From assembly GCA_026987195.1 (NCBI GenBank), contig JALSNC010000206.1:1-32550 (forward strand): DNA of 32,550 bases. The letters are read 5' to 3'. This document shows, in pieces, positions 1 through 32,145 of the stretch; position 1 is the first letter of the stretch, and every line of letters begins with the position of its first letter. This DNA comes from Desulfobulbaceae bacterium (GTDB lineage: Bacteria > Desulfobacterota > Desulfobulbia > Desulfobulbales > Desulfobulbaceae). The notes below the pieces were generated by a model that was given only the letters and a program-made list of their open reading frames with translations, searched no databases and had not been told where the DNA came from. The translations under genes were made by a program, and so were the position numbers.

Positions 1-124
1 GCTCGGCACCCTTGCCCTGGGCCTGACCATGGGCCAGTTCCTCAGCTCGGCCATGGTCCTGGCCGGTATCCTGCTCTGGGGGTGGAGAACAAGGGTGATG
101 GGGCCCGGGAAGATGGAGACTTGA
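1..124 (+). CDS. lgt: C-terminal end of prolipoprotein diacylglyceryl transferase (Lgt-like), partial
   Basis: Only the last 40 codons are in the window (frame from base 2, stop TGA at 122-124). The peptide contains GLTMGQFLSSAMVLAGILLW followed by a basic tail. This matches the conserved last membrane helix of Lgt, where SMGQ..S.PM..AG is typical. Lgt is an inner-membrane enzyme that moves diacylglycerol from phosphatidylglycerol to the lipobox cysteine of prelipoproteins. The gene converges on the alginate operon. The call rests on a short segment, so it is moderately sure; another polytopic membrane protein is possible. Confidence 0.65.
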   Translation, partial: LGTLALGLTMGQFLSSAMVLAGILLWGWRTRVMGPGKMET

Positions 125-134
125 TCCTGTTCCC

Positions 135-200
135 GTGAACGTCTACAGCATTGTGGCCGGAACAACCGAGGGTTGGCCATCCCGTGAGGGGTCAGGTTAT
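135..200 (-). repeat. Family 1 repeat, short form (copy D)
   Basis: Read on the minus strand this stretch carries CCCCTCACGGGATGGCCAAC, then CCTCGG, GGCCACAATGCTGTAGACG and TTCACGGG. It matches the first ~65 bp of the 157-bp family 1 element at 10356-10512 but lacks the long hairpin half. It fills the whole gap between the lgt-like stop and the algL stop. No flanking duplication is visible. It may be a solo end left by a larger element or an internal deletion. Confidence 0.7.
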
Positions 201-1339
201 CAACGCTGAAAAGGAGCATAGAGCCGGGTCAGGTTACCGCCCAGCCGGGTGGAGACCATCTTCCCGTATTCACCGACCAGCCTGTGTACTGCCGGGTCGG
301 CATGAAAGACGGTGCCATAGGGCAGCAGCCATGCCAGGGAGTATGGGGTACGGAGGCTGTCGACCTCCTGGGGACTGGAGGTGACCTCGGCAAAGATTGC
401 CGGATTCCCGATGCCTTCCACCACCCGGTCGACCAGACGACGGTAACCGGCCGTTTCCCCGGCCTGGAGATGCATGCCGTTGGCCTCGCCAAAGACGAGG
501 ATCATGGTCAGGGGCTGCAGGGCGTAGTTATGGTACAGCAGGGCCCGCGTCCGGCGCCGGAGCTCGTTGGGCAGATAGCCCTGGTCCGTCACCTGTTCAT
601 TGACCGCGATGCGCAGCCGGTTCCAGGCCCAGACAAAGAGATCCCTGCGGTCGAGCACCACGCTGGCGGCCATCACGGCCCAGCCCGCCCAGTAGTCATG
701 GTTGTTGATATGCTTGAGATCGCGGCCGCTGTAGTCCTGCCGCACCGTCTCGGCCAGCCGGGTGAACCATGCCTCCACCGCTCTCACCTGCCGCGGATGG
801 CCGGTCATCTCCTCCGGTGCCGCCAGGCTGACCTGCAGCCATGCCGAGGCTGTGGCAGCCAGCAGCCACTTGCGGCTGGCCATGCCGATCTCGTTACATT
901 CCGTGTTCAGCAGCGCATCTGCAGCGGCCCAGGAGCTGACCTGCTCGAGAAAACATTCCAGGACACGGGGATCGCCGTCTGCCTCGACATACCGGTCCGC
1001 CAGGCTGGAAACCGTCTTCTCAAAATTTCGCAGGATCCCGGCGAGACGCTCATACTCGGCGCTGGCCTCCGGGTTGATCCTGTCCCGCGCCCGGTCACTG
1101 CCCCTGTACTTGCTGGGAAAGACCAGGGAGCCGGTATAGGGCGGCAGCAGGGCCGGACAGGCAAAGGTTGATGGTTGCGTGCCCGCCGGCGGCCGGTAAT
1201 AGCCCGCCGGCGCATGGAGCGGGCCTGCGGGCTGATCGGCTTCGAGCATGTACCGGGCCGGCATCTGCGGGGCTGCCGCCGGCTTCTCCGGGCAGAGAAG
1301 AAAAAAGAACAGGAGCAGAAAACAGCAGATCGGTTGCAT
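200..1339 (-). CDS. algL: Alginate lyase AlgL (polysaccharide lyase family 5)
   Basis: A 379-residue protein with a signal peptide (MQPICCFLLLFFFLLC...). The family core is clear: NNHDYWAGWAVMAASV, then GYLPNELRRRTRALLYHNYA and a late LGGNLTRLY, as in Pseudomonas AlgL. The NNH and RR...YHN segments are the known active-site regions of PL5 lyases. AlgL acts in the periplasm, cutting alginate by beta-elimination. In Pseudomonas it clears polymer that leaks from the export complex. Here it is the last gene of the operon, 30 bp after algX, and ends beside repeat copy D. In Pseudomonas algL lies between algX and algI, so its place here is rearranged. Confidence 0.95.
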   Translation of the reverse strand: MQPICCFLLLFFFLLCPEKPAAAPQMPARYMLEADQPAGPLHAPAGYYRPPAGTQPSTFACPALLPPYTGSLVFPSKYRGSDRARDRINPEASAEYERLAGILRNFEKTVSSLADRYVEADGDPRVLECFLEQVSSWAAADALLNTECNEIGMASRKWLLAATASAWLQVSLAAPEEMTGHPRQVRAVEAWFTRLAETVRQDYSGRDLKHINNHDYWAGWAVMAASVVLDRRDLFVWAWNRLRIAVNEQVTDQGYLPNELRRRTRALLYHNYALQPLTMILVFGEANGMHLQAGETAGYRRLVDRVVEGIGNPAIFAEVTSSPQEVDSLRTPYSLAWLLPYGTVFHADPAVHRLVGEYGKMVSTRLGGNLTRLYAPFQR

Positions 1340-1369
1340 GGGGGCCTCGTTATCTGTTCAGATGCTGTT

Positions 1370-2803
1370 TCAGTGGTGGTCATCGCGCTTCCGGCGCCCC
1401 TGTTCACGGCAGATGGCAGCGGTGACCCGGAGTCCGTCCGCGAGACCGGGGGGCAGCTCCACGTCCATGGCGAGAAAGGTGGCCTGTTCCAGGCCGGGCT
1501 GGTGCCGGTTCAGTTCAAAGGTGAAGCGGCCGCCGAGATCGACGTTCCTGCTGTGGCGGATCGTCACCTTTTCCCGGCGGCCGTTCATGTACCAGAGCCG
1601 CGCGTCCAGCCGGTTCACGGCCGGATCGCTGAAGCGCAGGTCAATGATGTAGTCCCGGCCGGTGATGGGCAGGATCGTGCCGCCGCCGTTGAACAGGATC
1701 TCGTTGCTCCCGGGATGCAGGCTGACGCTGCGCCGCAGGAGCGGCTGCTGCCGGTCGCCGCAACCGTTTTCCAGCAGGGCCAGGGCCTGTTCGACGAACA
1801 TGGCTTTCTGGAGAGGATAATAACCCGGCACCTCCCAGACAAGGAAGGCCGGCGGCTCCCGGCGGAAGTCCTCCGATGCCAGGTACTGCAGCAGGGCACC
1901 GTCAAAACCGGCCCCGGCTATGCCGTTGTTGAGGACATCCGCCTCCAGGTACTGGCGCAGGAACCCGGCAAAGTTGTAGTTGTAGGCGCTCCTGCTGAAG
2001 CTGGTCCCCACCAGGACCACCTGCGGTTCTCCCCCGTCGTCCAGCAGCAGGTCCTCGTCGCTGCCCGCAGCGGTGGTGGCGTATTCGTCGACGTACTGGA
2101 GAGGATAGTCCTGGCCGCAGATCTGCAGGGCCGCCCTCTGCAGGGTGCCGTACTTTTCCAGCAGCCCCGTGCGCCGGGTGATGAACTTCCTGTGATCCAG
2201 CTCCTGCCAGGCCGGCTGCCGCCGTATCGCCTCCGCCACCAGGCGGGCGGTTCGGCGGGCGCCATGGGGGGTCCAGTGGTGATCGCGCCGGAAATAGAAC
2301 GCATTTTCCTCCTGTTCCGCGAGCAGGGCAGTCAGGTCGGGCACCAGGATGCCCTGCTGCCGCAACCGATCGAGGACCTCGGCATAACTGGCGGCAGCAG
2401 CGGTAAAATCGTAAGTGCAGTCCAGGAGCCTGTCCGGATGGACCAGCCCCCTGGTCGGCAGGTAGACAAGCACAAGCTGCACGCCTTTCTTTTTCAGCGC
2501 TTCGGCAAGACGGCCCAGATCCGCATATCCGCGATCGTCGGGCCCGAACGACTCCAGCAGCTCCTGATCGGTCCGGAACAGCCAGCCGTCCCTGCCCTGC
2601 ACCAGGCGGGAGAACATCCTGAGGAAACCGGTATTGTAGACCTTCGGGTCCGCGGCCCGGGCACAGAGCGGTGGCGCCGGATCAATCCGATAGACCGGCG
2701 GCCTCACCGGCCCTGCCTCTTCCGCCCGGCACAGGCCGCACAGCAACAGGAACATGGCCGCCAGCAAACCGGCCCGCCCGCAGGGACAATGGCCTCGTCT
2801 CAT
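1370..2803 (-). CDS. algX: Alginate O-acetyltransferase AlgX (SGNH-like domain plus C-terminal carbohydrate-binding module)
   Basis: 477 residues with an N-terminal signal segment (about 1-27), close to the 474 of P. aeruginosa AlgX. The SGNH-like catalytic motifs are present: D174 and H176 in RRDHHWTPHG, the same residue numbers as in P. aeruginosa, and the nucleophile serine in VLVGTSFSR near 268. The last ~130 residues fit the carbohydrate-binding module, which separates AlgX from AlgJ. AlgX acetylates alginate in the periplasm as part of the AlgI-J-F-X route and the export complex. Its start overlaps the algF stop by one base (TGATG), indicating translational coupling. Confidence 0.94.
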   Translation of the reverse strand: MRRGHCPCGRAGLLAAMFLLLCGLCRAEEAGPVRPPVYRIDPAPPLCARAADPKVYNTGFLRMFSRLVQGRDGWLFRTDQELLESFGPDDRGYADLGRLAEALKKKGVQLVLVYLPTRGLVHPDRLLDCTYDFTAAAASYAEVLDRLRQQGILVPDLTALLAEQEENAFYFRRDHHWTPHGARRTARLVAEAIRRQPAWQELDHRKFITRRTGLLEKYGTLQRAALQICGQDYPLQYVDEYATTAAGSDEDLLLDDGGEPQVVLVGTSFSRSAYNYNFAGFLRQYLEADVLNNGIAGAGFDGALLQYLASEDFRREPPAFLVWEVPGYYPLQKAMFVEQALALLENGCGDRQQPLLRRSVSLHPGSNEILFNGGGTILPITGRDYIIDLRFSDPAVNRLDARLWYMNGRREKVTIRHSRNVDLGGRFTFELNRHQPGLEQATFLAMDVELPPGLADGLRVTAAICREQGRRKRDDHH

Positions 2804-3453
2804 CAGCCCTGTCCCCGGCGGACGCTGTTCTCCACCCAGACCACCACCGGCGCGTTCCGGTCTCCGCAGACGAAAAGGCTGAACATCCTGCCCCGTTCCA
2901 GTGTGACCTGCGGCGCCCTGGCAAGCAGGATTTCGCCGTCATAGACATCCAGTTCCACCTGCACCGGGTTGACCCCGCGGGCAGCGCTGGTCATGGTGGC
3001 GGTCTGCCGGAACACCGTCCGCTTCTTCCTGCCGGTCTTCACCGACAGGTGGTCACTGCCGCTCAGATTGTAGAACACAAGCCACGCCTTTTTCCGGTCC
3101 CTGAAGACTGGATCCTCGACCAGGGCCAGCCGATCCGGCAGCAGGACGGCGGTATAGGAACGGTCTGCGGCCAGGGTCATGGTCAGGGTGTGACCGTCCG
3201 CCCGCAGGGTTTTTTTGCCCGGGACGAGAAACCCGTAGGCAGAGGCTCCATAGGCCCTGTCCGCGCGCAGGACCAGTTCGCCCAGCCGGGCCTCCACCCC
3301 GGCAGAGGCCGTGGCGTTGAACAGCCGGACAAAGGCGGATCCGGCCGGAGCTCGGGGACCGTAGAGGGCCTCTTCTCCGGCACGGCAACCATTTCCCGGG
3401 ATAAGGGAAAGCAACAGGACAACACAACAGAAACAGGCGGAAAGCTTCTTCAT
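2803..3453 (-). CDS. algF: Alginate O-acetylation accessory protein AlgF
   Basis: 216 residues from the ATG at 3453, the same length as Pseudomonas AlgF. A GTG one codon upstream would also be open, but the ATG gives a TGATG one-base overlap with algJ, the same arrangement as at the algF/algX junction. There is a signal peptide (MKKLSACFCCVVLLLSL), and the mature start ALYGPRAPAGSAFVRLFNA is typical of the family. AlgF is a periplasmic protein required for alginate acetylation, thought to pass acetyl groups between AlgI/AlgJ and AlgX. No catalytic motif is visible. Confidence 0.93.
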   Translation of the reverse strand: MKKLSACFCCVVLLLSLIPGNGCRAGEEALYGPRAPAGSAFVRLFNATASAGVEARLGELVLRADRAYGASAYGFLVPGKKTLRADGHTLTMTLAADRSYTAVLLPDRLALVEDPVFRDRKKAWLVFYNLSGSDHLSVKTGRKKRTVFRQTATMTSAARGVNPVQVELDVYDGEILLARAPQVTLERGRMFSLFVCGDRNAPVVVWVENSVRRGQG

Positions 3454-4589
3454 CACAGACTCCTTGGTTCAAGGGAAAGAAAGGGGATCATCGCTCCCGG
3501 CCCCGGCCGCCGCTCCCCGCCGACACCGCCTGCCGGCATGGGCAGGTAGCGCTCGGGGAACTCCCAGAGCACCAGTGCAGGCGGCATGTCCGCAAAATCA
3601 TCGGAGCGCAGGTAACGCAGCATCGGTTCCACGGGTCCCTCTCCCTTTTCGGCGTAATTGACCAGGTCACGCCTCAGCTCCCTGCGCAGGGCACCGGCGA
3701 AATTCCAGCGCGGATCGGCGCTGTAGCTGGTGCCGACCAGTGCCACGGCCACCGGTTGCGGGCCGGCGAGCAGCAGGTCATCGGCGTCGTCGCTGCGGTG
3801 CCGCGTCTTCCGTTCCACCAGGATATCGGCCGGCGGCAGGAGGAAGGAACACCAGGGATCCAGGGGAAGATAGGCGAGAAGATCCCCTGCATGGGACCGG
3901 GGGGCAAGACGCTCGGTCACATACTGCTGCCGACCCGGCGGCAGCAGACGGTTGCGGCGGATGACCTCTGCCAGGGCATGGGCGGCCACCTCGGCACCAT
4001 AGGGTGTCCAGTGGGTATCGGTACGGAAAAAGACCTGTCCTCCGGTCCGGCCGGCCGAGAGGGCAACACGCAGATCAGGCGCCGGTATGGCTGCCCGCCG
4101 CAGCATGGCCAGCAGACGGTCATACATCCGGACCTGGACCGGCGCCGGCCTGCGGCCGGCCACATACTCCGGGTAGATCCTGGCCTTGGCCGGCACCACT
4201 GCCATCACCAGGCGGATATGACGCCGGCCGAGGAGATCCGCCACCCTGGCGATGGTCTCCAGGTTGACACCGATCCGGCTGTCGGCCTGGGGATAGGTTC
4301 TGAACTCCTCGTCCGTGTACAGCCAGCCCTGCCGGCCGACGACCACGCCGGGTCTGCCCTCGGCAAAGAGGACATAGGCGATGGCGGCCCAGACATTGGT
4401 ACCCAGGGTGCGGGCGGGGAACGAGCGGTCATAATACTGCTCAAAGACATGGGAGACCACACCATCCATGATCCGGGCACGGGAGGGGACGGAGAAGGAG
4501 GCCAGGCTTCGCAGCGACGGCAGGGACAGGGACAGCAGCATGGAGAGAAAGAGCAGGGAATAGAGGAGATGAAAGCGCCGGCTGGACAT
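3453..4589 (-). CDS. algJ: Alginate O-acetyltransferase AlgJ
   Basis: 378 residues starting at MSSRRFHLLYSLLFLSM, an N-terminal membrane anchor or signal segment. The SGNH-type motifs are present: D191 and H193 in FRTDTHWTPYG and S288 in LVGTSYS. These are almost the same numbers as in P. aeruginosa AlgJ (D190, H192, S288). It takes part in moving acetyl groups from the membrane protein AlgI into the periplasm for alginate acetylation. The start at 4589 was chosen because it follows the algI stop by 14 bp and gives a signal segment at residue 1. The frame stays open far upstream, but that part lies over algI and is not coding. Confidence 0.93.
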   Translation of the reverse strand: MSSRRFHLLYSLLFLSMLLSLSLPSLRSLASFSVPSRARIMDGVVSHVFEQYYDRSFPARTLGTNVWAAIAYVLFAEGRPGVVVGRQGWLYTDEEFRTYPQADSRIGVNLETIARVADLLGRRHIRLVMAVVPAKARIYPEYVAGRRPAPVQVRMYDRLLAMLRRAAIPAPDLRVALSAGRTGGQVFFRTDTHWTPYGAEVAAHALAEVIRRNRLLPPGRQQYVTERLAPRSHAGDLLAYLPLDPWCSFLLPPADILVERKTRHRSDDADDLLLAGPQPVAVALVGTSYSADPRWNFAGALRRELRRDLVNYAEKGEGPVEPMLRYLRSDDFADMPPALVLWEFPERYLPMPAGGVGGERRPGPGAMIPFLSLEPRSL

Positions 4590-4603
4590 GGTGATACCTG
4601 GCC

Positions 4604-6031
4604 TCAGAACTGGAAGTAGAGAAAAGGTGAATAACTCTGCGCCGACAGTTTCAGGATCGACAGCCAGAACAGGGGCAGGAGAAGGATGGCGGCTGCATGG
4701 CGCAGAGCGGTCCGGCGGGGCAGACAGGGCAGGCGGGCGAGATCGATCCGCTGCCAGCAGCCGCCTGCCAGGATGAGGACCCAGGCAAGGAACAGAGTCG
4801 CCACCTGGAGACCGGTGATCTCCTCCCGGTAGAGCAGGCTCAGTCCCCTGCCGTCCGGGACAAACATGGCACCAAGCATGGTGCCCGCTGCACCCAGGTC
4901 TCCGGATCGGAACAGGACCCAGCCCACCAGGATCAGCAGGTTGGTGAAGGCGAGGCGGAAGGGACGGATGCGCCGCTTCTCCCGGATCGCGGTGCCGGTG
5001 GCCCGCTCCAGGGCCAGCCACAGGCCGTGCCAGGCGCCCCAGACCACGAAGGTCCAGTTGGCGCCATGCCAGAGACCACCCAGCAGCATGGTCAGGAACA
5101 GGTTGCGGCAGGTACGCACCAGGCTGCCCCTGTTGCCGCCCAGGGGTATGTAGAGATAATCGCGCAGCCAGGTGGAGAGGCTGATGTGCCAGCGCTGCCA
5201 GAACTCGGAGATGGAGTGGCTGAAATAGGGCTGGTTGAAATTTTCCACGAACCGGAACCCCATCATCAGGCCCAGGCCGATGGCCATGTCGCTGTAGCCG
5301 GAAAAGTCGAAATAGAGCTGGGCGCTGTAGGCCAGGGTCCCCAGCCAGGTGTCGGCCGTACCGGGTTGCGCCAGGGCAAAGGCGTGATCGGCCAGGGGCG
5401 CCAGGGTATCGGCGATGCATACCTTCCTGACAAATCCCTGCATGAACCGCGCCGCCCCCTCGGAGAACTTCTCCACGCTGTGGGTCCGCTGCCGGAACTG
5501 GCCCGCCAGGTCCTTGTAGCGGAGAACAGGGCCGGCGATCAGTTGCGGAAACAGGGCGATAAAGGCGGCAAAATCGACGAAACGGCGCGTGGAGGAGGTA
5601 TCGCCACGGTAAACGTCCACCAGGTAGCTGATGGCCTGGAAGATATAGAAGGAGATACCGATGGGAAGGATGATCTCCAGGCTGCCCAGGGACTGCAGGC
5701 CCATGGAGAGCAGAAGCCGGTTGAGGCTGGCCACGCCGAACCCGGCATACTTGAAGCAGCCCAGGATGGCGAGATCCACGCCGATGCCGGCGACCACCCA
5801 GCGGCGGGCGCCCCGGCTGCGGCTGCCTTGCGCCTCGATCATCCGGCCGGCCAGGTAGTTCCAGAGTGTCACCCCGGCAAAGAGGAACAGGAAATCCACC
5901 CGCCACCAGCCATAGAAGATACAGGAGCCGATGAGGATGGTCCAGGAACGGTACCTGGAGGGTGTCAGGTAGTAGGCCAGGAGATAGGCCGGCAGGAAGA
6001 GGAAGAGAAAGACGTTGGACGAAAATACCAT
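4604..6031 (-). CDS. algI: MBOAT acyltransferase AlgI for alginate acetylation
   Basis: 475 residues, a polytopic inner-membrane protein of the membrane-bound O-acyltransferase family. The MBOAT histidine is H322 in GGLWHGANWTFVVWG, the same number as the essential H322 of P. aeruginosa AlgI. H282 in WQRWHISLSTW is also kept. N-terminal MVFSSNVFLFLFLPAYLLAY is typical. It is thought to move an acetyl group across the membrane for AlgJ and AlgX. Pseudomonas AlgI has 520 residues, so the C-terminus is somewhat shorter here. It lies between algG (20 bp upstream) and algJ. Confidence 0.95.
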   Translation of the reverse strand: MVFSSNVFLFLFLPAYLLAYYLTPSRYRSWTILIGSCIFYGWWRVDFLFLFAGVTLWNYLAGRMIEAQGSRSRGARRWVVAGIGVDLAILGCFKYAGFGVASLNRLLLSMGLQSLGSLEIILPIGISFYIFQAISYLVDVYRGDTSSTRRFVDFAAFIALFPQLIAGPVLRYKDLAGQFRQRTHSVEKFSEGAARFMQGFVRKVCIADTLAPLADHAFALAQPGTADTWLGTLAYSAQLYFDFSGYSDMAIGLGLMMGFRFVENFNQPYFSHSISEFWQRWHISLSTWLRDYLYIPLGGNRGSLVRTCRNLFLTMLLGGLWHGANWTFVVWGAWHGLWLALERATGTAIREKRRIRPFRLAFTNLLILVGWVLFRSGDLGAAGTMLGAMFVPDGRGLSLLYREEITGLQVATLFLAWVLILAGGCWQRIDLARLPCLPRRTALRHAAAILLLPLFWLSILKLSAQSYSPFLYFQF

Positions 6032-6051
6032 GGCTGCGCTCGGCTGAATAC

Positions 6052-7599
6052 TCAGGGTTGCGGTGCGCCGGCCGGCACGGGTTCGATGGCCACGGCCCTG
6101 CCCGCGACCAGCAGGGAGATGATCTTTTCCTGCCAGGCCTGGAGGACGCCGGTGAACCGTATCCCGTTCCGGCCGCGCGGATAGGCCATGCTGACCCGGT
6201 ACAGGGTGGCGCGCAGGGGGTTGTCGATCTTGAGGGGACCGTGCCGGTTGTCGGCCAGCACGCCTCCCTGGAGGACGAAAGAGAGCTTCTGAAAATGGGG
6301 ATCCCTGACCAGGTCGCGGCCGGTGGCGGACAGATCCCTGACCATGCCGGCGACACCGTAGCGCCGGTTGCGCAGGACGATATTGTCGCGGAGATCCAGA
6401 TCGACGCTGTTGCGCAGCATGATGCCGTGACGCCGGTTGTCCAGGATCACGTTGCCGCTGAGGATGTTGTTGTCACTCTCGTAGATGGCGATGCCGTCAC
6501 CGCCGTTGCCGTAGATGAGATTACCGGCCACCACGTTTCCGGTGCAGTTCCTGTCCAGCAGTATGCCGGACAGGCCGTTGTCGAAACAGCGGTTGTCAAA
6601 TATCCAGGAGTCCTGCACATCCCGGGACATGACAATCCCGTGTTTGTGCCGCGAGGCATGGACCCTGTTGCCCGCGATGATCAGGCGCCGCGACCGGTCG
6701 TGGGGATCGATGCCGTAGACGATGTTGTCGTGGTAGTCGTTGCGCAGGATCACCACGTCGTCGGCCTCGTAGCAGTAGAAACCATAGTAGATATCGGTGA
6801 ACTCGGAATCGATGAGCCAGCCCGAGGGCCGGTGGTGACCACTGCTGCCGTCATCCCGGTTGTACTGGCTGAGGGTGATGCCGTAGGACTTGCTCCGGTG
6901 ATAGCCCAGGCTGGCCACCCGCGAGGCGGCGATATAGGTCTCCGAGTCGCCCCAGGCCGTGATAAAGGGCCGGAAATCGTCCCTGCCGGCATAGGTGGCC
7001 GGGCTGTTTTTCATCTCGTCCCAGCCCGTGACCCGGGTGCGGATGAGGAACATGCGGCCGCCATTGACGAGAAAGGCGCCCCGCTGCAGCGAGAGCCGCA
7101 GTTCGCGAACGCGATCGTCCACCAGCAGGGTCGCTCCCGGTCCGATCACCAGGGGCAGGCGACAGATGTAGATGCCGGGCCCGCTCTCCGCGAACAGCTC
7201 CGGGCCGAGCCGGGAGGCGAGCAGGGCCGGAGTGGCGAGACCGTCCCGGAGGAAGATGGCCCTGGGAAACGAGCGCTGCCGACGGGCCCATTCCCGGATC
7301 CTCTCGCTGCGGCCGGCGGTGAAGTCCTCAAGGGCGGGCTGACGCCGCATGCGCTCCAGACTGATCTTCGCCTGTGGTCCCCGGCCGACGCGTTCCTCCA
7401 CCGCGGCAACGGTGTAGCCGTCCAGGGCGGGCAGGGCAACCTGCTGCCGCGCCAGCCAGCCGGCCGGGATCTCCACGGCCCGGTAGGTGGTCCATGTGGC
7501 GGCCCCTGCCGCCGGCCGGGGAACGACACTGACAAGTGCCAGCATGAGCCCGAGGGCCACGGTCAGCAGAGGAGCGGGTTGTCTTTTCAGTTGCAGCAT
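6052..7599 (-). CDS. algG: Mannuronan C5-epimerase AlgG
   Basis: 515 residues from the ATG at 7599, which begins a clear signal peptide (MLQLKRQPAPLLTVALGLML). The frame is open further upstream, but that would run into algE. The C-terminal half is a right-handed parallel beta-helix with repeated N..I..N/G..GI turns. The epimerase signature DPHD lies at residues 298-301 (IVYGIDPHDRS). AlgG converts D-mannuronate to L-guluronate in the polymer in the periplasm and belongs to the export scaffold. It starts 7 bp after the algE stop, so it is probably coupled. The Shine-Dalgarno match is weak. Confidence 0.94.
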   Translation of the reverse strand: MLQLKRQPAPLLTVALGLMLALVSVVPRPAAGAATWTTYRAVEIPAGWLARQQVALPALDGYTVAAVEERVGRGPQAKISLERMRRQPALEDFTAGRSERIREWARRQRSFPRAIFLRDGLATPALLASRLGPELFAESGPGIYICRLPLVIGPGATLLVDDRVRELRLSLQRGAFLVNGGRMFLIRTRVTGWDEMKNSPATYAGRDDFRPFITAWGDSETYIAASRVASLGYHRSKSYGITLSQYNRDDGSSGHHRPSGWLIDSEFTDIYYGFYCYEADDVVILRNDYHDNIVYGIDPHDRSRRLIIAGNRVHASRHKHGIVMSRDVQDSWIFDNRCFDNGLSGILLDRNCTGNVVAGNLIYGNGGDGIAIYESDNNILSGNVILDNRRHGIMLRNSVDLDLRDNIVLRNRRYGVAGMVRDLSATGRDLVRDPHFQKLSFVLQGGVLADNRHGPLKIDNPLRATLYRVSMAYPRGRNGIRFTGVLQAWQEKIISLLVAGRAVAIEPVPAGAPQP

Positions 7600-7606
7600 G
7601 ACCGGG

Positions 7607-8995
7607 TCAGAAGTCGAGAAAAAAATCCAGGGTAAGGCGATAGAAGAGCGAGTCTTCATCCTCACCGTATGCCGCTCCCGCCAGAAGCATGGAGCTGCGC
7701 AGGCGCAGGTAGCCGCGGCCCTGGATGCCATGCCACCGCAGGGTGTCCAGGTAGCGGGTCAGACAGATGTCCAGTTCCCGGCCGATATCGCCGTTGCCGG
7801 GCACCACGCTGCCGGGCAGGAGGTCGGATCCGTAGGGCCCGTCAGGATCGTCGAGCCGCACGTCCTCGACCAGAACAACACCCTCGTACCGTTCATCGGG
7901 CCGGACCGTGGCGAACAGGGTGGCGACACGGAGATTGCTGAATTCCGGCCGCAGGAAATCACCAAACCTGTAAATGCGGCTGCGGCTGCCGGCGAAACGC
8001 GACCTGTTGCTGCCCAGACCGCTGGCGGTAAAAAGACGGGAGGTTCCTCCCTCGCCACCACCGCTGGCCAGGGCCCAGGCCGCACCGACGCGCAGGGGCA
8101 GGGCCAGGGGGAGTTGCCAGGATGCGCCGAGATCCACGGCCCAGGCATCCACATCCACCCGGGTACTGCCCAGGACCATATCGTTGTCCACCAGCAGATC
8201 CTCGCGGCTGCCGCTCAACCCCATCAGGGTCAACCAGTAGGCCGCCGGGCCCGCGGGCCCGCGGTCAGCGGATTCCGCCCGCAGGCCGTACCAGAGGAAA
8301 TCTCTCCTCGTGCGCCGGCCGCCGGCATCGATGCCCTGGCCGCTGCCGGCCAGACGCTCCCCATCCCTCTGGTACATGACAAAACCGGCCAGCCAGTGCC
8401 CCGGCTGCCACTGCCAGCCCAGATTGCCATAGAGGTTGAACCGGCCCCTGTCCTCATCCTCCAGGTGCCAGCTGTCGGTACGCCAGCCGGCAAAACGGCG
8501 GGCGGCAAACAGATCGGCGCGCAGGAGGGTGGTATCGAAACGCCAGGCCGCGGCCTCGATATCAGTATCAAGGAAGATGCCGTCCCTGTTGCGCAGGCGC
8601 TGGCGGCCAATACGCAGAGACTCCCCCGGGTAGGGGGTCAGGCCGTCATAGTCCACCCAGAACTGGCGCAGACCGACGAAACCGTCGGAAACGATGTTGC
8701 CCTCCTCGCTGTCCAGCCGGGTAGTGGAGGTGGAGGCGAAGAGCTGACCCCTGGCGTAGAGGGTCCAGTGCGGTGCCACCCCGGAGCGGATCCACGGTTT
8801 GACATCCAGGTAGAGGCTCTCCCGGTCACCGGTCAGGCCGAGGCCGGGATCGGTGTCGCTCTCCACCAGGCCCGAGACCTTGATGCGGACCCCGTGGCCG
8901 GATGGCTCCACCCCCGGGTCGGTCGCCGCAGCCGCGGTAGTGACAGCCGACAGGAGGGACAGGACAATGATGGCAAGATGGCGTGCGCGGATCAC
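7607..8995 (-). CDS. algE: Outer-membrane alginate export porin AlgE
   Basis: 462 residues starting at GTG (8995), overlapping the algK stop in GTGA. Signal peptide MIRARHLAIIVLSLLSAVTTAAAA, then a series of alternating amphipathic strands ending in FYRLTLDFFLDF, a terminal aromatic strand typical of beta-barrels. Conserved family features include SLYLDVKPWIR, LRIGRQRLRNRDG and FVMYQRDG. AlgE is the 18-stranded porin through which alginate leaves the cell; the Pseudomonas protein has 490 residues. It works with AlgK and AlgX. Confidence 0.93.
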   Translation of the reverse strand: MIRARHLAIIVLSLLSAVTTAAAATDPGVEPSGHGVRIKVSGLVESDTDPGLGLTGDRESLYLDVKPWIRSGVAPHWTLYARGQLFASTSTTRLDSEEGNIVSDGFVGLRQFWVDYDGLTPYPGESLRIGRQRLRNRDGIFLDTDIEAAAWRFDTTLLRADLFAARRFAGWRTDSWHLEDEDRGRFNLYGNLGWQWQPGHWLAGFVMYQRDGERLAGSGQGIDAGGRRTRRDFLWYGLRAESADRGPAGPAAYWLTLMGLSGSREDLLVDNDMVLGSTRVDVDAWAVDLGASWQLPLALPLRVGAAWALASGGGEGGTSRLFTASGLGSNRSRFAGSRSRIYRFGDFLRPEFSNLRVATLFATVRPDERYEGVVLVEDVRLDDPDGPYGSDLLPGSVVPGNGDIGRELDICLTRYLDTLRWHGIQGRGYLRLRSSMLLAGAAYGEDEDSLFYRLTLDFFLDF

Positions 8996-10350
8996 TTCGA
9001 TTGCTCCGTGGCATACGCTTGCAGCGGATGCCCTGCCTTCCGCCAGGCCTGTTCCTGTTCCAGGAGGGTCGCGGCCTGTCGCCGCTGCTTCGGTGTCGCC
9101 ACCTGCCGCAGCCGGTCGCGGAGGGCTGCGCCCCTGACGCTTCCCTGCCCGGCCGCCAGGGAGGAAAAGACCAGTCCATAGACCGGATTGGCACGGATGC
9201 CACGGCCGCGGACGAACATCTCGGCCAGGGCCAGGTCGGCCCGCGCCTCGCCGGACCGGGCCGCGGCCAGGAGCAAGTCCAGGGCCTGCCGGTGATCAGG
9301 CCGGCCGAGATACCCCCGCGCGTAGATCCGGCCCAGATAGTAGTCGGCCGCAGGCAACCGGTGGGCCACGGCCAGGAAATACTGTTCAGCCCGCAACGGG
9401 TTCCGGGCCACCTGCCGTCCTTCAAAGTAAATCCGCCCCAGGAGGAGATTGCCCTGGTCCGGGTCAACGGTCCTGAGCTGCCTGGCCAGGGAAAGAAGAC
9501 GACCGGGCCGGGCCAGGAACGGATAGTTCATGATCAGGTGCGCCTGGCGGACCAGAGCGCGGGGCTCTGCGGGCGTAACCGCTGCATACAGGGCCAGGGC
9601 ACTCTTTGCCAGGCCGGGATCCACCCTCTCCGCCACCAGAGTGTCGGCCACATCCACTGCCACCGCAGGATCGAGGACGCCGTTCCCGACTCCCTGTTGC
9701 ACCTGCTGCAGCAGCCGCTCCAGGGCCCGGCGACGGTCGCCTAGAAGCATCACCCGGACAAGATCGGCATGACAGGCCGGGACCCGATCCAGGTTCCGGC
9801 GGCAGATCGCCTCGATCTCCTGCAGATGATCGGCACAGGTTCCGGAGCCGCGGTACCAGGTGACCAGGCCATATTCCGGAACAGGGACGCCGCCGCTGCG
9901 GGCAGCGGCAATGGCCCGGTCAACATCCGTCCTCCGGACCAGGTCCGGATGGGCGGCATACATGGAGACCAGGGTCTGGTAGGCCCGGCCATCGCCCCGG
10001 CCGGTGGCCGCCAGCAGGAGCCGCTGCACGGTGAAAAAATCGTCTGCCGGCATCCTGTTGTCCACGGCCAGCATCCTGCCCAGGCGAAGAGCGGCCCGCG
10101 GGTCACGATCCAGGGCCTGGCGGTACCAGAAAACAGCCTGCCGGCGATCGGCATCCCGTTCCATGTCACCCAGATCGACCCAGGCGGCCGCATATCCCCG
10201 GCGACCAAGCTGCTGCAGGTGCCAGCGCGCCGTTTCCCGGTCGCCGTCGGCGGCCGCCCGCCGGGCCAGGGACAGATCGGGCAGGCGGACGCAGCCGGCG
10301 GCAAGCAGAAGACACACCAAAAGCGGCCAACCGCGGTACAGGAGGTTCAT
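8992..10350 (-). CDS. algK: Alginate export lipoprotein AlgK (TPR/Sel1-like)
   Basis: 452 residues from the ATG at 10350. The N-terminus MNLLYRGWPLLVCLLLAAGC is a lipoprotein signal with lipobox LAAGC, which fixes the start; the upstream extension of the frame falls in a mobile repeat. The rest is Sel1/TPR-like helical repeats (for example AWVDLGDMERDADRRQAVFWYRQAL and ADYYLGRIYARG). AlgK is the outer-membrane scaffold lipoprotein that places AlgE and binds AlgX and Alg44. Pseudomonas AlgK has 475 residues. Its ATG lies inside the 8-bp target duplication of the element at 10356-10512, so its original coupling to alg44 has been broken. Confidence 0.92.
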   Translation of the reverse strand: MNLLYRGWPLLVCLLLAAGCVRLPDLSLARRAAADGDRETARWHLQQLGRRGYAAAWVDLGDMERDADRRQAVFWYRQALDRDPRAALRLGRMLAVDNRMPADDFFTVQRLLLAATGRGDGRAYQTLVSMYAAHPDLVRRTDVDRAIAAARSGGVPVPEYGLVTWYRGSGTCADHLQEIEAICRRNLDRVPACHADLVRVMLLGDRRRALERLLQQVQQGVGNGVLDPAVAVDVADTLVAERVDPGLAKSALALYAAVTPAEPRALVRQAHLIMNYPFLARPGRLLSLARQLRTVDPDQGNLLLGRIYFEGRQVARNPLRAEQYFLAVAHRLPAADYYLGRIYARGYLGRPDHRQALDLLLAAARSGEARADLALAEMFVRGRGIRANPVYGLVFSSLAAGQGSVRGAALRDRLRQVATPKQRRQAATLLEQEQAWRKAGHPLQAYATEQSK

Positions 10351-10355
10351 TTTCC

Positions 10356-10512
10356 GTAAGCGCTTACAGGAGCCGCATCTTTGCACGGTCGTGCCTGCCC
10401 GCATAGGTAGGCTATAGCGGTCAGGCATGCCTGCACAAATCTGCGGCCCCTGAGAGTGTTTACACCATTGTGGTCGGACAGACCGATGGTCAGCCATCCC
10501 GTAAGGGGTTAC
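10356..10512 (-). mobile_element. Family 1 non-autonomous element, 157 bp (copy A) with perfect 8-bp target duplication
   Basis: On the minus strand it begins GTAACCCCTTACGGGATGG and ends CCTGTAAGCGCTTAC. Its ends are inverted repeats (GTAACCCCTTAC against GTAAGCGCTTAC, 10 of 12 matching). The sequence CATTTTCC stands at 10348-10355 and again at 10513-10520, a perfect 8-bp target duplication. The 3' two thirds form a long imperfect hairpin whose tip is CCGCTATAG...CTATGCGG (10399-10420). GTAA ends and 8-bp duplications are typical of IS66-family elements, so this looks like a MITE moved by an IS66-type transposase; that assignment is inference. It lies between alg44 and algK. Confidence 0.92.
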
Positions 10513-11693
10513 CATTTTCCTGCCAGCGCTGTCCCGGTCAGAATCGATCCGGCCAGGGTGCCGGGCGCCAGACCGCCGATGCTCACCTGGACCGGCCGGC
10601 CGATGAACCGGGCGGCAATGGGCTGATCCGGGACGATGCGGACCAGTACGGAATCAGTACCACTCTCGGCCACGGACGGAGACATCACCTGCGCCACCCG
10701 GCCGGACAGTTCCCCGGCCTGGCCGGCGATCCGCAGCCGCACCGGATCGCCCGGGGCGATACGCCCGCCCCGGGAAAAGGGAAAACGGGCCATGACAAAG
10801 GGTTGTGCATCCACATCCACCAGCCGGAATATCTCCTGGCCGCGGGCGGCGAACTGGCCATCGGCCACCAGTTGTTCCTGGATGCGGCAGTTGCACGGAC
10901 TGGTGATGGTGCCCTTGAGCGTCTTGCGCAGGAGCTGCTCCACAGTGCCGGGCGCGGGGAGGTCGCCCCGCAGGCTGCCCCTGACCAGATCCAGGAGGGA
11001 CGAACGGAACAGGGCCAGCGGTTCGCCCTGACCGACCTGTCCGTCCCCGCCGACCACACTCTCGAGAATGCCATCCCGGGGCATGGTGACGGTATAGGTG
11101 CGGGCGGTCACCGTGGCCGACTGGGCATGACCGACAAAGTAGAGATCATAGAGCCGGCCGCAGACCAGGCCGAAGGCCACCAGGCCGACACCGAAAAAGA
11201 CCAGGCTCAGGAACACCGGCCGCACCCGGTGGCGCAGCCCGGATCGTTCCTCACCGGTACGTTTGCGGCGGGGCCGTGTGAAGTTGTCTCTTGCCAGGAT
11301 GTCGAGGGTGTCATCCACACTCACCAGTTCGCCACTCAGAAACGACGTGATCAGGTGCCGCAGCACCGCCACCTGGCGGGGCTCCATCCGCTCAAACTCA
11401 CAGCCGGTATCACCGGAATCTCGATCCTGCCAGCGGACCTGAAAACGAACCGGCAGGGAAAGGTCGATTGTGCCTACGCTGAAGCAGAGGGTGGCGGTGC
11501 ACTGATCACCTGCAGCCAGGGAAAGGGCGGATTCCTGTATGCGGAAGCCGCCGGCGGACAGGTCGTGCAGCTCACACCGGTGTTCCTCTCCCCCGGGACC
11601 GACAAAGTGGAGAATGGCCGGAAGACGGACCCGGGCATACTGCCGCTGGGCCTCTGACTCATGGACCATATTCATGGGGGTTTTGTCTGACAT
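10509..11693 (-). CDS. alg44: Alginate polymerase co-regulator Alg44 (PilZ, c-di-GMP binding)
   Basis: 394 residues from the ATG at 11693, with GGAG about 9 bases before it; a GTG one codon upstream is an alternative. An N-terminal PilZ domain (about 15-115) holds RQYARVRLP (RxxxR) and DLSAGGF (DxSxxG), the c-di-GMP binding motifs. One membrane helix follows (about 155-178), then a periplasmic HlyD-like hairpin domain. In Pseudomonas, c-di-GMP bound to Alg44 switches on the Alg8 synthase. The final codons are odd: the last Trp codon and the TAA stop come from the inserted repeat. Without the insertion the gene would end in a TGA overlapping the algK ATG. Confidence 0.94.
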   Translation of the reverse strand: MSDKTPMNMVHESEAQRQYARVRLPAILHFVGPGGEEHRCELHDLSAGGFRIQESALSLAAGDQCTATLCFSVGTIDLSLPVRFQVRWQDRDSGDTGCEFERMEPRQVAVLRHLITSFLSGELVSVDDTLDILARDNFTRPRRKRTGEERSGLRHRVRPVFLSLVFFGVGLVAFGLVCGRLYDLYFVGHAQSATVTARTYTVTMPRDGILESVVGGDGQVGQGEPLALFRSSLLDLVRGSLRGDLPAPGTVEQLLRKTLKGTITSPCNCRIQEQLVADGQFAARGQEIFRLVDVDAQPFVMARFPFSRGGRIAPGDPVRLRIAGQAGELSGRVAQVMSPSVAESGTDSVLVRIVPDQPIAARFIGRPVQVSIGGLAPGTLAGSILTGTALAGKW

Positions 11694-11741
11694 CACAGGG
11701 GCTCCATCCGTAATATTGATTGTCCTCAGCCAGGGCCGGCA

Positions 11742-13223
11742 TCAGACCAGGTTAAGCAGCAGAAAGAGAAAGACCGAGCTGGCGGCAAAGGTCAGGGCCC
11801 GGGAGGACCAGCGGTTGAACCAGGGTCTGAACCCGGTGTTTCCGGTCGCAAGCCGTGTCTTCTGCCTGGTCCATGACTGCCGGTCCAGACGAAAAAAGAC
11901 ATAGATCTTCATCAGCGAGCCGAAGATCTGGTTATAGTAGAGCAGCACCGGAAAGGCCGGCCCGACCCGGTGTCCGGAGGCGATGAGGAGCAGGACCAGC
12001 AGCAGGCGCGTGGACCCGATCCAGAGCAGGTAGATGAGAAAATAGAGGATCGAATACCTGACGGAGGCGATGACGGCGATGATCGGCGCCAGCAGGCTGG
12101 TCCACATGGAGATCCGCTGGTCCAGCAGGACATAGGAGGCAAACAGTCCGAGGCGCTGCACCCCGAGCTTCAGGGCCCGGGAGTTCTGGCGCAGCGAATT
12201 GCCATACCAGCGGAACATCAGCTGGCGGCTCGCCGGGACAAACCCGGGATCGGGCGGATGTTCCACCGTGGTGACCGAGGCGTCCGGAACATAGTAGGTA
12301 TCCCAGCCAAGCCGCATGAGGCTGAACCAGCTCGACTTGTCGTCACCGGTGAGAAACCGGAAGTGGCCCAGCCGCCAGTGGTCCAGAGCATCGTTTTCCA
12401 CATCATCGATAAACCCCGGATCGGTGACCACCACGGCCCGGAACAGGGACATCCTGCCGGTCATGGTCAGGACCCGCCAGGAGAGTGCCATGGAGCACAT
12501 GGCGATCTGGCGCTGGGCAAATCGCAGCCTGTGCCACTGGGCCATGAGATAGCTGCCGCGCACCTCGCAGAACTCGTTGGTGGTCAGGGCGCCCACGGAC
12601 GGAAACAGGCGGAAGAAGGGAACCGTTCTCTGTACCACCCCCGGGTCCAGGACCGTGTCGCCATCCACCACTGCCACCACCGCATCCTCATCGGGCAGGT
12701 CCCTGGAGATGGCGCGAAAGCCGTAGGCCAGGCCGTCCCGTTTTCCGGTCCCGGGGATGCGGACCACCACCAGGCGTACCCGCGACGGTGGCGCCTTCCG
12801 CCGCCACAGGGCCCGGATCAGCATCTCGTCAGCCAGCTCGACGATGGAGGCGACCACCACTGCCGGATACCCGCAGGCCACGGCTTCGTCGATCACCGAG
12901 CCATAGACCAGCCCCGTGGTCCCGGCATCGATGCGAAAACTGGTCACCAGGAGATAGACCCGGGACGGTGCCGCCGCATCTCCCAGGGCAAGGGCGCGCC
13001 TGCGATGCCGGGGGAAGAGCAGGTGCAGGAAGAAGACACCCCGCAGGTAGTGGATGATGCCGATGGAATACCGCCACATCCCGACTGCGCCGATGAGGAG
13101 GATGAAATGACGCGATCCCGGGGTGAGCACGGTCTTCGGTAACAGGGTGGCCAGGGCCAGAAGAATGGTAAGATACACCAGCCAGCCGGTGATGTTGTTG
13201 AAGGTGCGCAGCAGACGATTCAT
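11742..13223 (-). CDS. alg8: Mannuronan synthase Alg8 (glycosyltransferase family 2)
   Basis: 493 residues against 494 in P. aeruginosa. There are membrane helices at both ends and a cytoplasmic GT2 domain with VVDGDTVL (DxD-type), the region TGDDKSSW (general-base/TED-like position) and [13 protein letters not shown] (QxxRW-like position). Alg8 polymerises GDP-mannuronic acid and passes the chain across the inner membrane together with Alg44. The gene starts 29 bp after the algD stop and is followed by alg44 after 48 bp. Confidence 0.95.
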
Positions 13224-13252
13224 TGCTCACGGAGGAAACGGGCAGGGCAGCG

Positions 13253-14563
13253 TCACCAGCAGATCCCCTGATGGGTCTCAGTGGACGGATGCGGCAGGAC
13301 ACCCACCAGGTCCACCACCTTTTTCCCCACCGGCAGATCGTGGACCACCCTGGCGAAACTCTTGTCGTTGTTGCCGATCACCAGGACCTCGGCATGCGCC
13401 ACCACCTGATCGAGATCATCGGTGAGCAGGGAGGAGACATGCGGAATCCTGGTCTCGATGAACTCCCGGTTGGCGCCGTTGACACGGGAATATTCCACGT
13501 GCCGGTCATAGATGGCCAGATCATAGCCTTTGCCGATCATCATCTCGGCCAGTTCGACCAGCGGACTCTCCCGCAGGTCATCGGTGCCGGCCTTGAAACT
13601 CAGGCCCAGCAGACCGATCCGCCGTCCACCCAGGGAGGAAACCAGGTCAAAGGCCTTCTGCAACTGGTTGCGGTTGCTGGGCAGAACCGCGCTGAGCAGG
13701 GGATGCTCCACATCAAGCCGGGAGGCACGGTAACTCAGGGCACGGATGTCCTTTGGCAGACAGGAACCGCCAAAGGCGAATCCGGGCCGCATGTAGTACT
13801 CGGAGATATTGAGCTTGTTGTCCCGGCAGAGGATGTTCATCACCTCCCTGCCATCGACACCGAGGGCCTTGGCGATATTTCCGATCTCATTGGCAAAACT
13901 CACCTTGACCGCATGCCAGACATTGCAGGTGTACTTGATCATCTCCGCCACCTCCACCCCCTGGCGGACAATTGGGGCATCTAGATGACGGTAGAGGGTC
14001 TCCAGGACATCGCCGGACAGGGGATCGAGCTCGCCGATCACGGTGATGGGGGGATTGCGGTAATCGTGGACCGCGGTACTCTCTCGCAGGAACTCCGGGT
14101 TGACGGCAACGCCGAAATCCACTCCGGCCCGCTTGCCGGAACACGACTCCAGCAGAGGAATGACCACATTCCGGACCGTGCCCGGCAGCACCGTTGACCG
14201 GACCACCACGGTATGACGATCCCTCTTGCGGGCCAGGACCTCACCGATCTGGATGCAGACCGCCTTGACATACGCAAGATCGAGGTCGCCATTCTTCTTG
14301 CTCGGCGTCCCCACACAGATCATGGACAGGTCGGTGTCCATGACCGCCCTGTCGATGTCCGCGGTTCCCCGGATCAGGCCGGCGGTCACACCCCGCCGGA
14401 GGAGTTCTCCCAGCTCGGGTTCGACGATGGGCGACCTGCCCTGATTGATCAGGTCAATCTTGACATCGGAGACATCCACACCGATGATGTGGTGTCCCCG
14501 GTCGGCAAGACAGGCCGTGCACACAGCGCCGACATACCCGAGTCCCAAGATGGAGATACGCAT
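13253..14563 (-). CDS. algD: GDP-mannose 6-dehydrogenase AlgD
   Basis: 436 residues, the same length as P. aeruginosa AlgD. The NAD-binding N-terminus MRISILGLGYVGAVCTACLA and the catalytic cysteine C268 in RPGFAFGGSCLPKDIRAL, at the same number as in Pseudomonas, are clear. The enzyme oxidises GDP-mannose to GDP-mannuronate, the committed step of alginate synthesis, in the cytoplasm. It is the first gene of the operon. Upstream are a sigma-54 type promoter (14731-14746), a perfect palindrome in the predicted leader (14661-14687) and an inverted repeat (14819-14842). Other UDP/GDP-sugar dehydrogenases are alike, but the context and the GDP-mannose type N-terminus settle the call. Confidence 0.96.
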   Translation of the reverse strand: MRISILGLGYVGAVCTACLADRGHHIIGVDVSDVKIDLINQGRSPIVEPELGELLRRGVTAGLIRGTADIDRAVMDTDLSMICVGTPSKKNGDLDLAYVKAVCIQIGEVLARKRDRHTVVVRSTVLPGTVRNVVIPLLESCSGKRAGVDFGVAVNPEFLRESTAVHDYRNPPITVIGELDPLSGDVLETLYRHLDAPIVRQGVEVAEMIKYTCNVWHAVKVSFANEIGNIAKALGVDGREVMNILCRDNKLNISEYYMRPGFAFGGSCLPKDIRALSYRASRLDVEHPLLSAVLPSNRNQLQKAFDLVSSLGGRRIGLLGLSFKAGTDDLRESPLVELAEMMIGKGYDLAIYDRHVEYSRVNGANREFIETRIPHVSSLLTDDLDQVVAHAEVLVIGNNDKSFARVVHDLPVGKKVVDLVGVLPHPSTETHQGICW

Positions 14564-14660
14564 GATTATTTCCTCATACAGAAAATTTTCGGGTCGGCAT
14601 GGGCAAAAGTGTCAGTATTGCAATGGAGTTGCCGCTCGATATGAACTGTTCCGACAGAGG

Positions 14661-14842: not shown

Positions 14843-15256
14843 GGCAGGAAAAAAAGACTCTTCTCCCCGACTCTCTGCATGTTTCCCCAGTCTGCGGGAG
14901 GCAACAACGCGATGGTTCCAGGCACCGCATCGGTGCATGGAATTCCCACCCGCATGGCAGGTCGCGGAGGTGGCCGGAGGCGGTTGTCCCTGCATCCGTG
15001 CCGGAAGCGGGTCCGGCACATGGAAGGGAAACGATCACACGAGACTCAACCTGGCGATTTTCAGATCGTATACCGGCAAGCGCTGCCGCAGATTCGCGCA
15101 GGTACTCCTGACCTCTGACAGGTGAGCGCAGTGAGACTCCGAGGCGTAGCGATGTCGGACAGGCGGAGGCGTACAGGTAGTGCGTCGGATGTTGGCCGCA
15201 GCCGCTGCAACGCAGTAGATCGGACTTTTTGCAACGCCATCAAAGATGGGGTGCCT
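14843..15256. other. Gene-free interval with small hairpins
   Basis: No credible gene is seen on either strand. Perfect small hairpins are present: GCACCG-CAT-CGGTGC (14922-14936) and GTGCCGGA-AGCGGG-TCCGGCAC (14998-15019). Around 15110-15180 lies a patch with AGACTCCG and two GGACAGG/TGACAGG words. AGACTCCG also appears twice inside repeat copy B (15648-15862), so this may be a decayed relative. A small RNA cannot be excluded, but there is no clear promoter or terminator. Confidence 0.4.
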
Positions 15257-15317
15257 GTAAGCGCTTACACCACTGTGCCCGGAAAAACCGATGGCTGGTC
15301 ATCCAGCGAGAGGGTAC
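15257..15317 (-). repeat. Family 1 repeat, short 61-bp form (copy E)
   Basis: On the minus strand it starts GTACCCTCTCGCTGGATGAC, passes through CCATCGGTTTTTCCGG and CACAGTGG, and ends TGTAAGCGCTTAC. It matches the left third of the 157-bp element. Both ends are GTA-type, but the flanking 8-mers (GGGTGCCT and GCGGACAG) differ, so no target duplication is left. The stretch from 15318 to 15539 shows no gene. Confidence 0.75.
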
Positions 15318-15539
15318 GCGGACAGGTGGAGGAGAGGGGAGGGTACCCGGTACGCATCGGAATGAGGGGAGAAAAGGATCAGCAACCGGTGGGAACGGGT
15401 AACAGTGTCGGTCCTTTCAGGTGGTTGCCCATGGCGGTGAACTCTAGGGGAACAGCGGGTGGATGGCGTTGCTGTCGATCAACGGAAAACCACGGCAGGC
15501 TTTTCCCCGACAACGGCAGAAGAGCACAACAGCAACAGC

Positions 15540-15647: not shown

Positions 15648-15862
15648 GTACCCCCTCACGGGATGGCTACCCATCGGTTTGTCCGACCACAATGGTGGCA
15701 GCGCTCTCATGGGCCGCAGATTCGGATTCTACGCTTACCTGTGCAGGCGTGCCTGGCCGCAGGTAAGAGACCATAGGGAGACTCCGACAGCCTACCTAGC
15801 GGGCAGGCACGACCGTGCAAAGTGGTAAGCGAAGACTCCGTGCGGCTCCTGTGAGCACGTAC
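15648..15862 (+). mobile_element. Family 1 element, long 215-bp form (copy B)
   Basis: Begins GTACCCCCTCACGGGATGGC and ends GGCTCCTGTGAGCACGTAC, five bases before the HU stop. Compared with copies A and C (157 bp) it has three extra pieces totalling 58 bp. The extra piece in the left arm (CGGATTCTACGCTTACC) and the one in the right arm (GGTAAGCGAAGACTCCG) are near reverse complements, so together they lengthen the hairpin stem. The third piece sits in the loop. No exact target duplication is visible. Confidence 0.85.
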
Positions 15863-31988: not shown

Positions 31989-32145
31989 GTAATCCCTCAC
32001 GGGATCACCAACCATCGGTTTTTTTGACCACAATGTGTAAGCGCTCTCAGGGGCCGCAGATTTGTGCAGGCGTGCCTGACCGCTATAGTCTAACCTATGC
32101 GGACAGGCACGCCTGTGCAAAGATGCGGTGCCTGTGAACGCTTAC
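31989..32145 (+). mobile_element. Family 1 non-autonomous element, 157 bp (copy C) with perfect 8-bp target duplication
   Basis: Begins GTAATCCCTCACGGGATC and ends GGTGCCTGTGAACGCTTAC, the same 157-bp length as copy A. ATAAGTCC stands at 31981-31988 and again at 32146-32153, a perfect 8-bp target duplication. The hairpin arms carry GGGGCCGCAGATTTGTGCAG and its partner, and the tip is at 32080-32102. It lies only 27 bp after copy F2, so two elements have entered the same intergenic stretch. Confidence 0.93.

Follow-up and report, generated by a model that had tools for sequence, protein, structure and literature searches.

The window analysed here is a stretch of 32,550 nucleotides, contig C206 of a 3.8-Mb MAG of a Desulfobulbaceae bacterium that is assembled in 316 contigs. 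Its minus strand carries an operon encoding an NDP-sugar dehydrogenase (13253-14563), a PilZ/HlyD protein (alg44), an AlgK-type lipoprotein and an AlgG-type epimerase, with the product of algK matching the AlgK profile NF038194 at E=3e-83, under its curated cut-off. Between alg44 and algK lies a 157-bp element that is flanked on both sides by a perfect 8-bp CATTTTCC, which reads GGAAAATG on the coding strand, and whose terminal inverted repeats GTAAGCGCTTACAGGA and GTAACCCCTTACGGGA are identical at 13 of 16 positions (Table 1). The element has no gene of its own, its longest frame being 52 codons, and no transposase gene; it is short, ends in inverted repeats, carries a duplication of fixed length that is specific to each copy, has dispersed copies in the genome and is missing from the equivalent sites of relatives, as is characteristic of a MITE.

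Table 1. Features of the alg44/algK junction and the second 157-bp copy in the window
Feature	Position	Strand	Remarks
Mobile element, 157-bp IS66-type MITE (type assigned from sequence), GTAAGCGCTTACAGGA ... TCCCGTAAGGGGTTAC	10356-10512	+	40 homologous copies in own genome; copies with differing 8-bp duplications
Target-site duplication, copy 1, CATTTTCC	10348-10355		contains native algK ATG (10348-10350, - strand)
Target-site duplication, copy 2, CATTTTCC	10513-10520		contains duplicated ATG (10513-10515, - strand)
Left terminal inverted repeat, GTAAGCGCTTACAGGA	10356-10371	+	consensus of copies GTAAGCGCTCACAGGA
Right terminal inverted repeat, GTAACCCCTTACGGGA	10497-10512	-	consensus of copies GTAACCCCTCACGGGA
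Nested near-palindromic hairpin unit, about 108 bp	10356-10463	-	internal ghost end GTAAACACTCTCAGGGG
Stop-free frame of 55 codons, duplicated ATG through element to algK	10351-10515	-	in frame with algK
alg44 (PilZ and HlyD-type domains)	10509-11696	-	one Trp longer than that of the relative
alg44 TAA stop	10509-10511	-	from GTAA tip of element, at +1 of element; protein ends LAGKW*
algK (AlgK-type lipoprotein, Sel1/TPR repeats)	8992-10350	-	native start intact, ATG AAC
Second 157-bp MITE copy	31989-32145	-	duplication ATAAGTCC on both sides

The original prediction held that the element had inserted exactly at a four-base ATGA overlap of alg44 and algK, that the duplicated target contained the algK start codon, and that relatives without the element should show the overlap. 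Removing the element and one duplicate in silico restored GGA AAA TGA for alg44, overlapping ATG AAC for algK. A genome of the same genus (G001, locus L142), whose Alg44 and AlgK are 74% and 64% identical to those of the host, lacks the element and reads GCCGGAAAATGAGATTC at this junction, that is, GGA AAA TGA overlapping ATG AGA; it therefore carries the exact predicted GGAAAATGA overlap and not some other junction, and each copy of the duplication in the host indeed contains an ATG. The same ATGA overlap joins alg44 to algK in 8 of 9 Pseudomonas loci, while the junctions of Marinobacter, Hahella and Teredinibacter mostly differ from it. Since the overlap is present both in the empty site of G001 and in nearly all of the Pseudomonas loci, it is old in the host lineage and was split here.

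The consequences for the two genes were likewise as foreseen. The 3' end of alg44 now reads GGA AAA TGG TAA, so that the protein has gained a single Trp before the stop supplied by the element, and algK retains its own ATG, leaving both proteins whole; the native algK start now lies 158 nt downstream of the alg44 stop, behind a strong predicted hairpin. The coding strand of the element was predicted to fold at -75.6 kcal/mol (z = -5.3), which agrees with the claim that a long hairpin had been put into the operon message. At the level of sequence, these comparisons establish what the element is and where it ends, the empty site that it entered and the integrity of both predicted proteins.

Searching the host genome with a 173-bp query gave 45 matches, 40 of which were extracted as full or near-full copies (84-100% identity), and the left tip GTAAGCGCTCACNG matched at 344 places with no more than one mismatch, compared to 2 for a reversed control. 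Across 101 stretches around copies (266 kb), 8-bp repeats that differed at no more than one position enclosed 51 pairs of ends. Two poor pairs (L008, 324 bp; L022, 100 bp) were dropped as chance, leaving 49 credible copies, 35 with perfect duplications and 14 with one mismatch, although chance may also account for a few further pairs whose repeats have one mismatch and whose ends diverge (L223, for example). All 49 copies carry different duplications, and CATTTTCC is therefore target sequence and not, as would have undone the proposed insertion, a part of the element that recurs elsewhere. Family members range from 61 to 348 bp, with a main class of 157 bp. Both inverted repeats at alg44/algK have CTTAC where the family has CTCAC, and a 223-bp element at L268 (1293-1515) shows the identical paired change in its ends; the two ends of the MITE seem to co-vary. 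Partial matches to the 157-bp element were also found in 24 of 57 related genomes, mostly within the nested unit of about 108 bp. This appears to be a very abundant and hitherto undescribed family of IS66-type MITEs in Desulfobulbales-type genomes.

IS66 ends are described as starting GTAAGCG and as being accompanied by 8-bp repeats (PMC11946415), and the element shares the GTAA ends and the 8-bp target duplication. Complete IS66 elements, located via their PF03050 transposase in genomes of the same family and order, also had GTAA tips and perfect 8-bp duplications. The closest of these were 1546-bp single-ORF copies in G088 and G091 with ends GTAACTAATCACAGGG, which share with the MITE the GTAA tips, the 8-bp duplication and TCACAGGG at end positions 9-16 (GTAA....TCACAGGG); they differ from it in that the MITE is without a gene and has GCGC/CCCC at end bases 5-8 where the IS66 copies have CTAA. 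The match of these closest intact family members to the MITE ends is thus partial, being GTAA and TCACAGGG only. Many MITE copies end in GTAAGCGCTCACAGGG or ...GGA. In the host genome, a transposase remnant of IS66 type (the C-terminal part) adjoins an end GTAATAGTTCACCG, and beyond this remnant the fragmented assembly yielded no intact, autonomous IS66 sharing the ends of the MITE. Judged by its ends and duplication, the element is an IS66-type MITE, named by type and not by an exact parent.

Two further genes in the survey stop at the tip of an element as alg44 does. An OmpA-family gene (L028) takes its TAA from the tip and has lost one codon relative to its empty site; its orthologues in G001 and G002 lack the element and end at nearly the same place as that empty site. 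A gene at L010 also has a tip-supplied TAA and is 20 codons shorter; this pair has no orthologue in the genus, hence no empty site from relatives. At L017 the final residues of the upstream gene are replaced, with a stop 20 nt into the element, and in the reconstructed empty site this gene overlaps the following one by ATGA; G001 and G002 have this pair without the element, but there the gene ends differently from the reconstructed site, and the overlap is not dated by them. At L022 the duplication includes the ATG with which an iron-sulfur protein gene starts. Genes were called on either side of the element in 37 contexts. In 22 of these the two genes share a strand, and in 3 (L001, L017 and L010) the element separates a pair that overlapped or nearly did so; the counts are approximate, since gene calling relied on a basic codon-usage score derived from seven genes of the window. 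No preference for start/stop overlaps as a target was seen among the 49 varied duplications, whose contexts are mostly intergenic. Such a pattern agrees with dispersed insertion and later removal of harmful copies, with no need for target choice.

Taken as a whole, we consider it very probable that an IS66-type MITE inserted into the alg44/algK overlap and that both genes were preserved by the stop in its tip and the duplicated ATG. An IS66-family transposase would have moved the MITE in trans, and entry into the ATGA overlap, with 8-bp duplication of the target, would have followed the split from the sister lineage represented by G001. Alg44 would have been kept by the GTAA tip, which provides TAA one codon past the original end, and algK by the duplication, which brings a second copy of its ATG; any insertion harmful to one of the two genes would have disappeared. 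AlgK might then be made from two starts, the native ATG or the duplicated one, the latter adding 55 residues to the N-terminus of pre-AlgK. The mature lipoprotein would be the same from either, provided that the longer signal peptide is exported and is cut at the LAAGC lipobox. The expected outcome would be an AlgK output that is lower and less tightly coupled, but not lost.

The original prediction had also stated that translational coupling was broken, and this stands in part: the native ATG has been moved away from the alg44 stop as described, but the duplicated ATG (10515-10513) overlaps the new stop as ATGGTAA (10515-10509). As the element and one duplication together measure 165 nt (157+8), or 55 codons, and the frame has no stop, this second ATG is in frame with algK, and a 507-aa ORF (8992-10515) joins the element frame to algK. 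Should ribosomes restart at the overlap, they would still be brought into algK because this frame stays open. That algK is nevertheless truly uncoupled, being translated only de novo from the native ATG with AlgK falling relative to Alg44, is a possibility that we regard as real but somewhat less than even. The spacing of 158 nt is beyond those at which coupling works well (PMC12548453), the predicted hairpin stands between the stop and the native ATG, and Shine-Dalgarno-like pairing at the native ATG is weak (-3.5 kcal/mol). The native ATG itself is predicted to be unpaired. Against such uncoupling, the duplicated ATG offers a start that overlaps the stop, opens into algK and has the better predicted anti-SD pairing (-5.5 kcal/mol).

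The opposite reading is that the open frame of the element carries ribosomes onward from the overlapped start, as in MIRUs, so that coupling is kept by fusion into the AlgK signal peptide. MIRUs resemble the present case in being repeats at the start codon of a coupled pair whose frame overlaps the upstream stop (PMC12548453), and coupling has been reported for their insertions at start codons (PMC12548453). At alg44/algK the frame does start on the upstream stop (ATGGTAA) and runs in frame through 55 open codons, and 20 of 23 copies of the element have the matching frame open. The second MIRU feature, a frame stop over the downstream start, is absent here; a MIRU frame ends overlapping the next start, whereas this one instead fuses with algK. 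The MITE family, unlike MIRUs, has no preference for overlaps, with its 49 different duplications and few copies at such sites, and shuffled elements held at least one open frame of six in 61% of cases (a chance of about 0.61). Selection on the open frame was also considered and, given this value for shuffles, set aside as unproven. On balance a MIRU-like role for the element frame seems unlikely.

All 55 extra residues precede the predicted lipobox cleavage site (LAAGC) of AlgK, and the MNLLYRGWPLLVCLLLAAGC downstream of the extension resembles a lipoprotein signal, as judged from its residues. Because the extra residues precede MNLLYRGWPLLVCLLLAAGC, the mature AlgK could be identical from either start. 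The full sequence of events, in which ribosomes that finish alg44 reinitiate at the duplicated ATG and translate the 55 codons into algK, and the extra residues are shed at the lipobox to leave mature AlgK unchanged, is, to our judgement, rather improbable; if coupling were kept in this manner, a mobile element could enter a coupled junction at almost no cost.

That the hairpin has been selected in the alginate operon for a regulatory function, as a terminator or a site for RNase III/E, we hold to be very unlikely, strong as the predicted fold is. Correia and ERIC elements influence message processing (PMC10969869), and the arms of this element remain complementary across 23 copies, with 95.6% of cells paired and two-sided changes in 11 cells compared to 3.3 in shuffles, a test that is inflated by the relatedness of copies; but any MITE would be expected to show paired arms since the arms are copied as a unit. 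The element held no terminator-like or promoter-like site, with no GC-rich hairpin followed by a T run as in an intrinsic terminator, no signal of selection was seen at the alg44/algK site, and an Rfam search of the element returned no known RNA family. A mis-join induced by repeats, conceivable in a fragmented MAG with hundreds of them, can practically be dismissed, as it would give neither a perfect 8-bp duplication nor the conserved order of alg44 and algK on both sides.

Geobacter uraniireducens, host of the Chunjie MITE, is of the Desulfobacterota type. One copy of Chunjie lies in an operon, the structure of which is reportedly undisturbed (Chen et al. 2008, via PMC10969869). To the extent of the title and summary of that report, Chunjie is like the alg44/algK MITE in having inverted and direct repeats and dozens of intergenic copies of variable size with one in an operon, and unlike it in sequence, in size (178-235 bp) and in the operon concerned (PMC10969869). 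Rickettsia palindromic elements, which form in-frame fusions (PMC10969869), are similarly short and palindromic and add whole codons in an open frame (PMC10969869), but they insert inside coding genes, whereas the MITE is mostly intergenic and its extension, if made, would precede a predicted signal peptide. With Chunjie, MIRUs and these elements, the kind of event is already known. What is distinctive here is the unusually exact proof of the empty site, combined with a second start codon that reads in frame into the following gene. The junction is a clean natural example of a GTAA-ended, 8-bp-duplicating element that entered a gene overlap with both proteins kept and an empty site in a sister species; a GTAA tip reads as a stop in one of its three frames, and with the duplication comes a copy of the start codon of the following gene. 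The duplicated in-frame start makes the question of alg44-algK coupling testable, and the locus offers natural tests of whether 158 nt of hairpin can replace a coupled overlap and whether a lipoprotein signal can bear a long N-terminal extension.

The alginate-type operon (window 1-14600) lies in a Desulfobulbales-type MAG, and its Alg44 is up to about 43% identical to that of Pseudomonas. Among 74 genomes of the family, strong matches were found in G000 and G001 only. This suggests that the operon was acquired from outside. Upstream of it are two more degenerate members of the MITE family, at 15648-15862 and about 15080-15320, with no matching 8-bp duplications. Elsewhere in the genome (L004, 1506-1665), a MITE copy with the duplication AAATTTTC interrupts the apparent transposase gene of another element.
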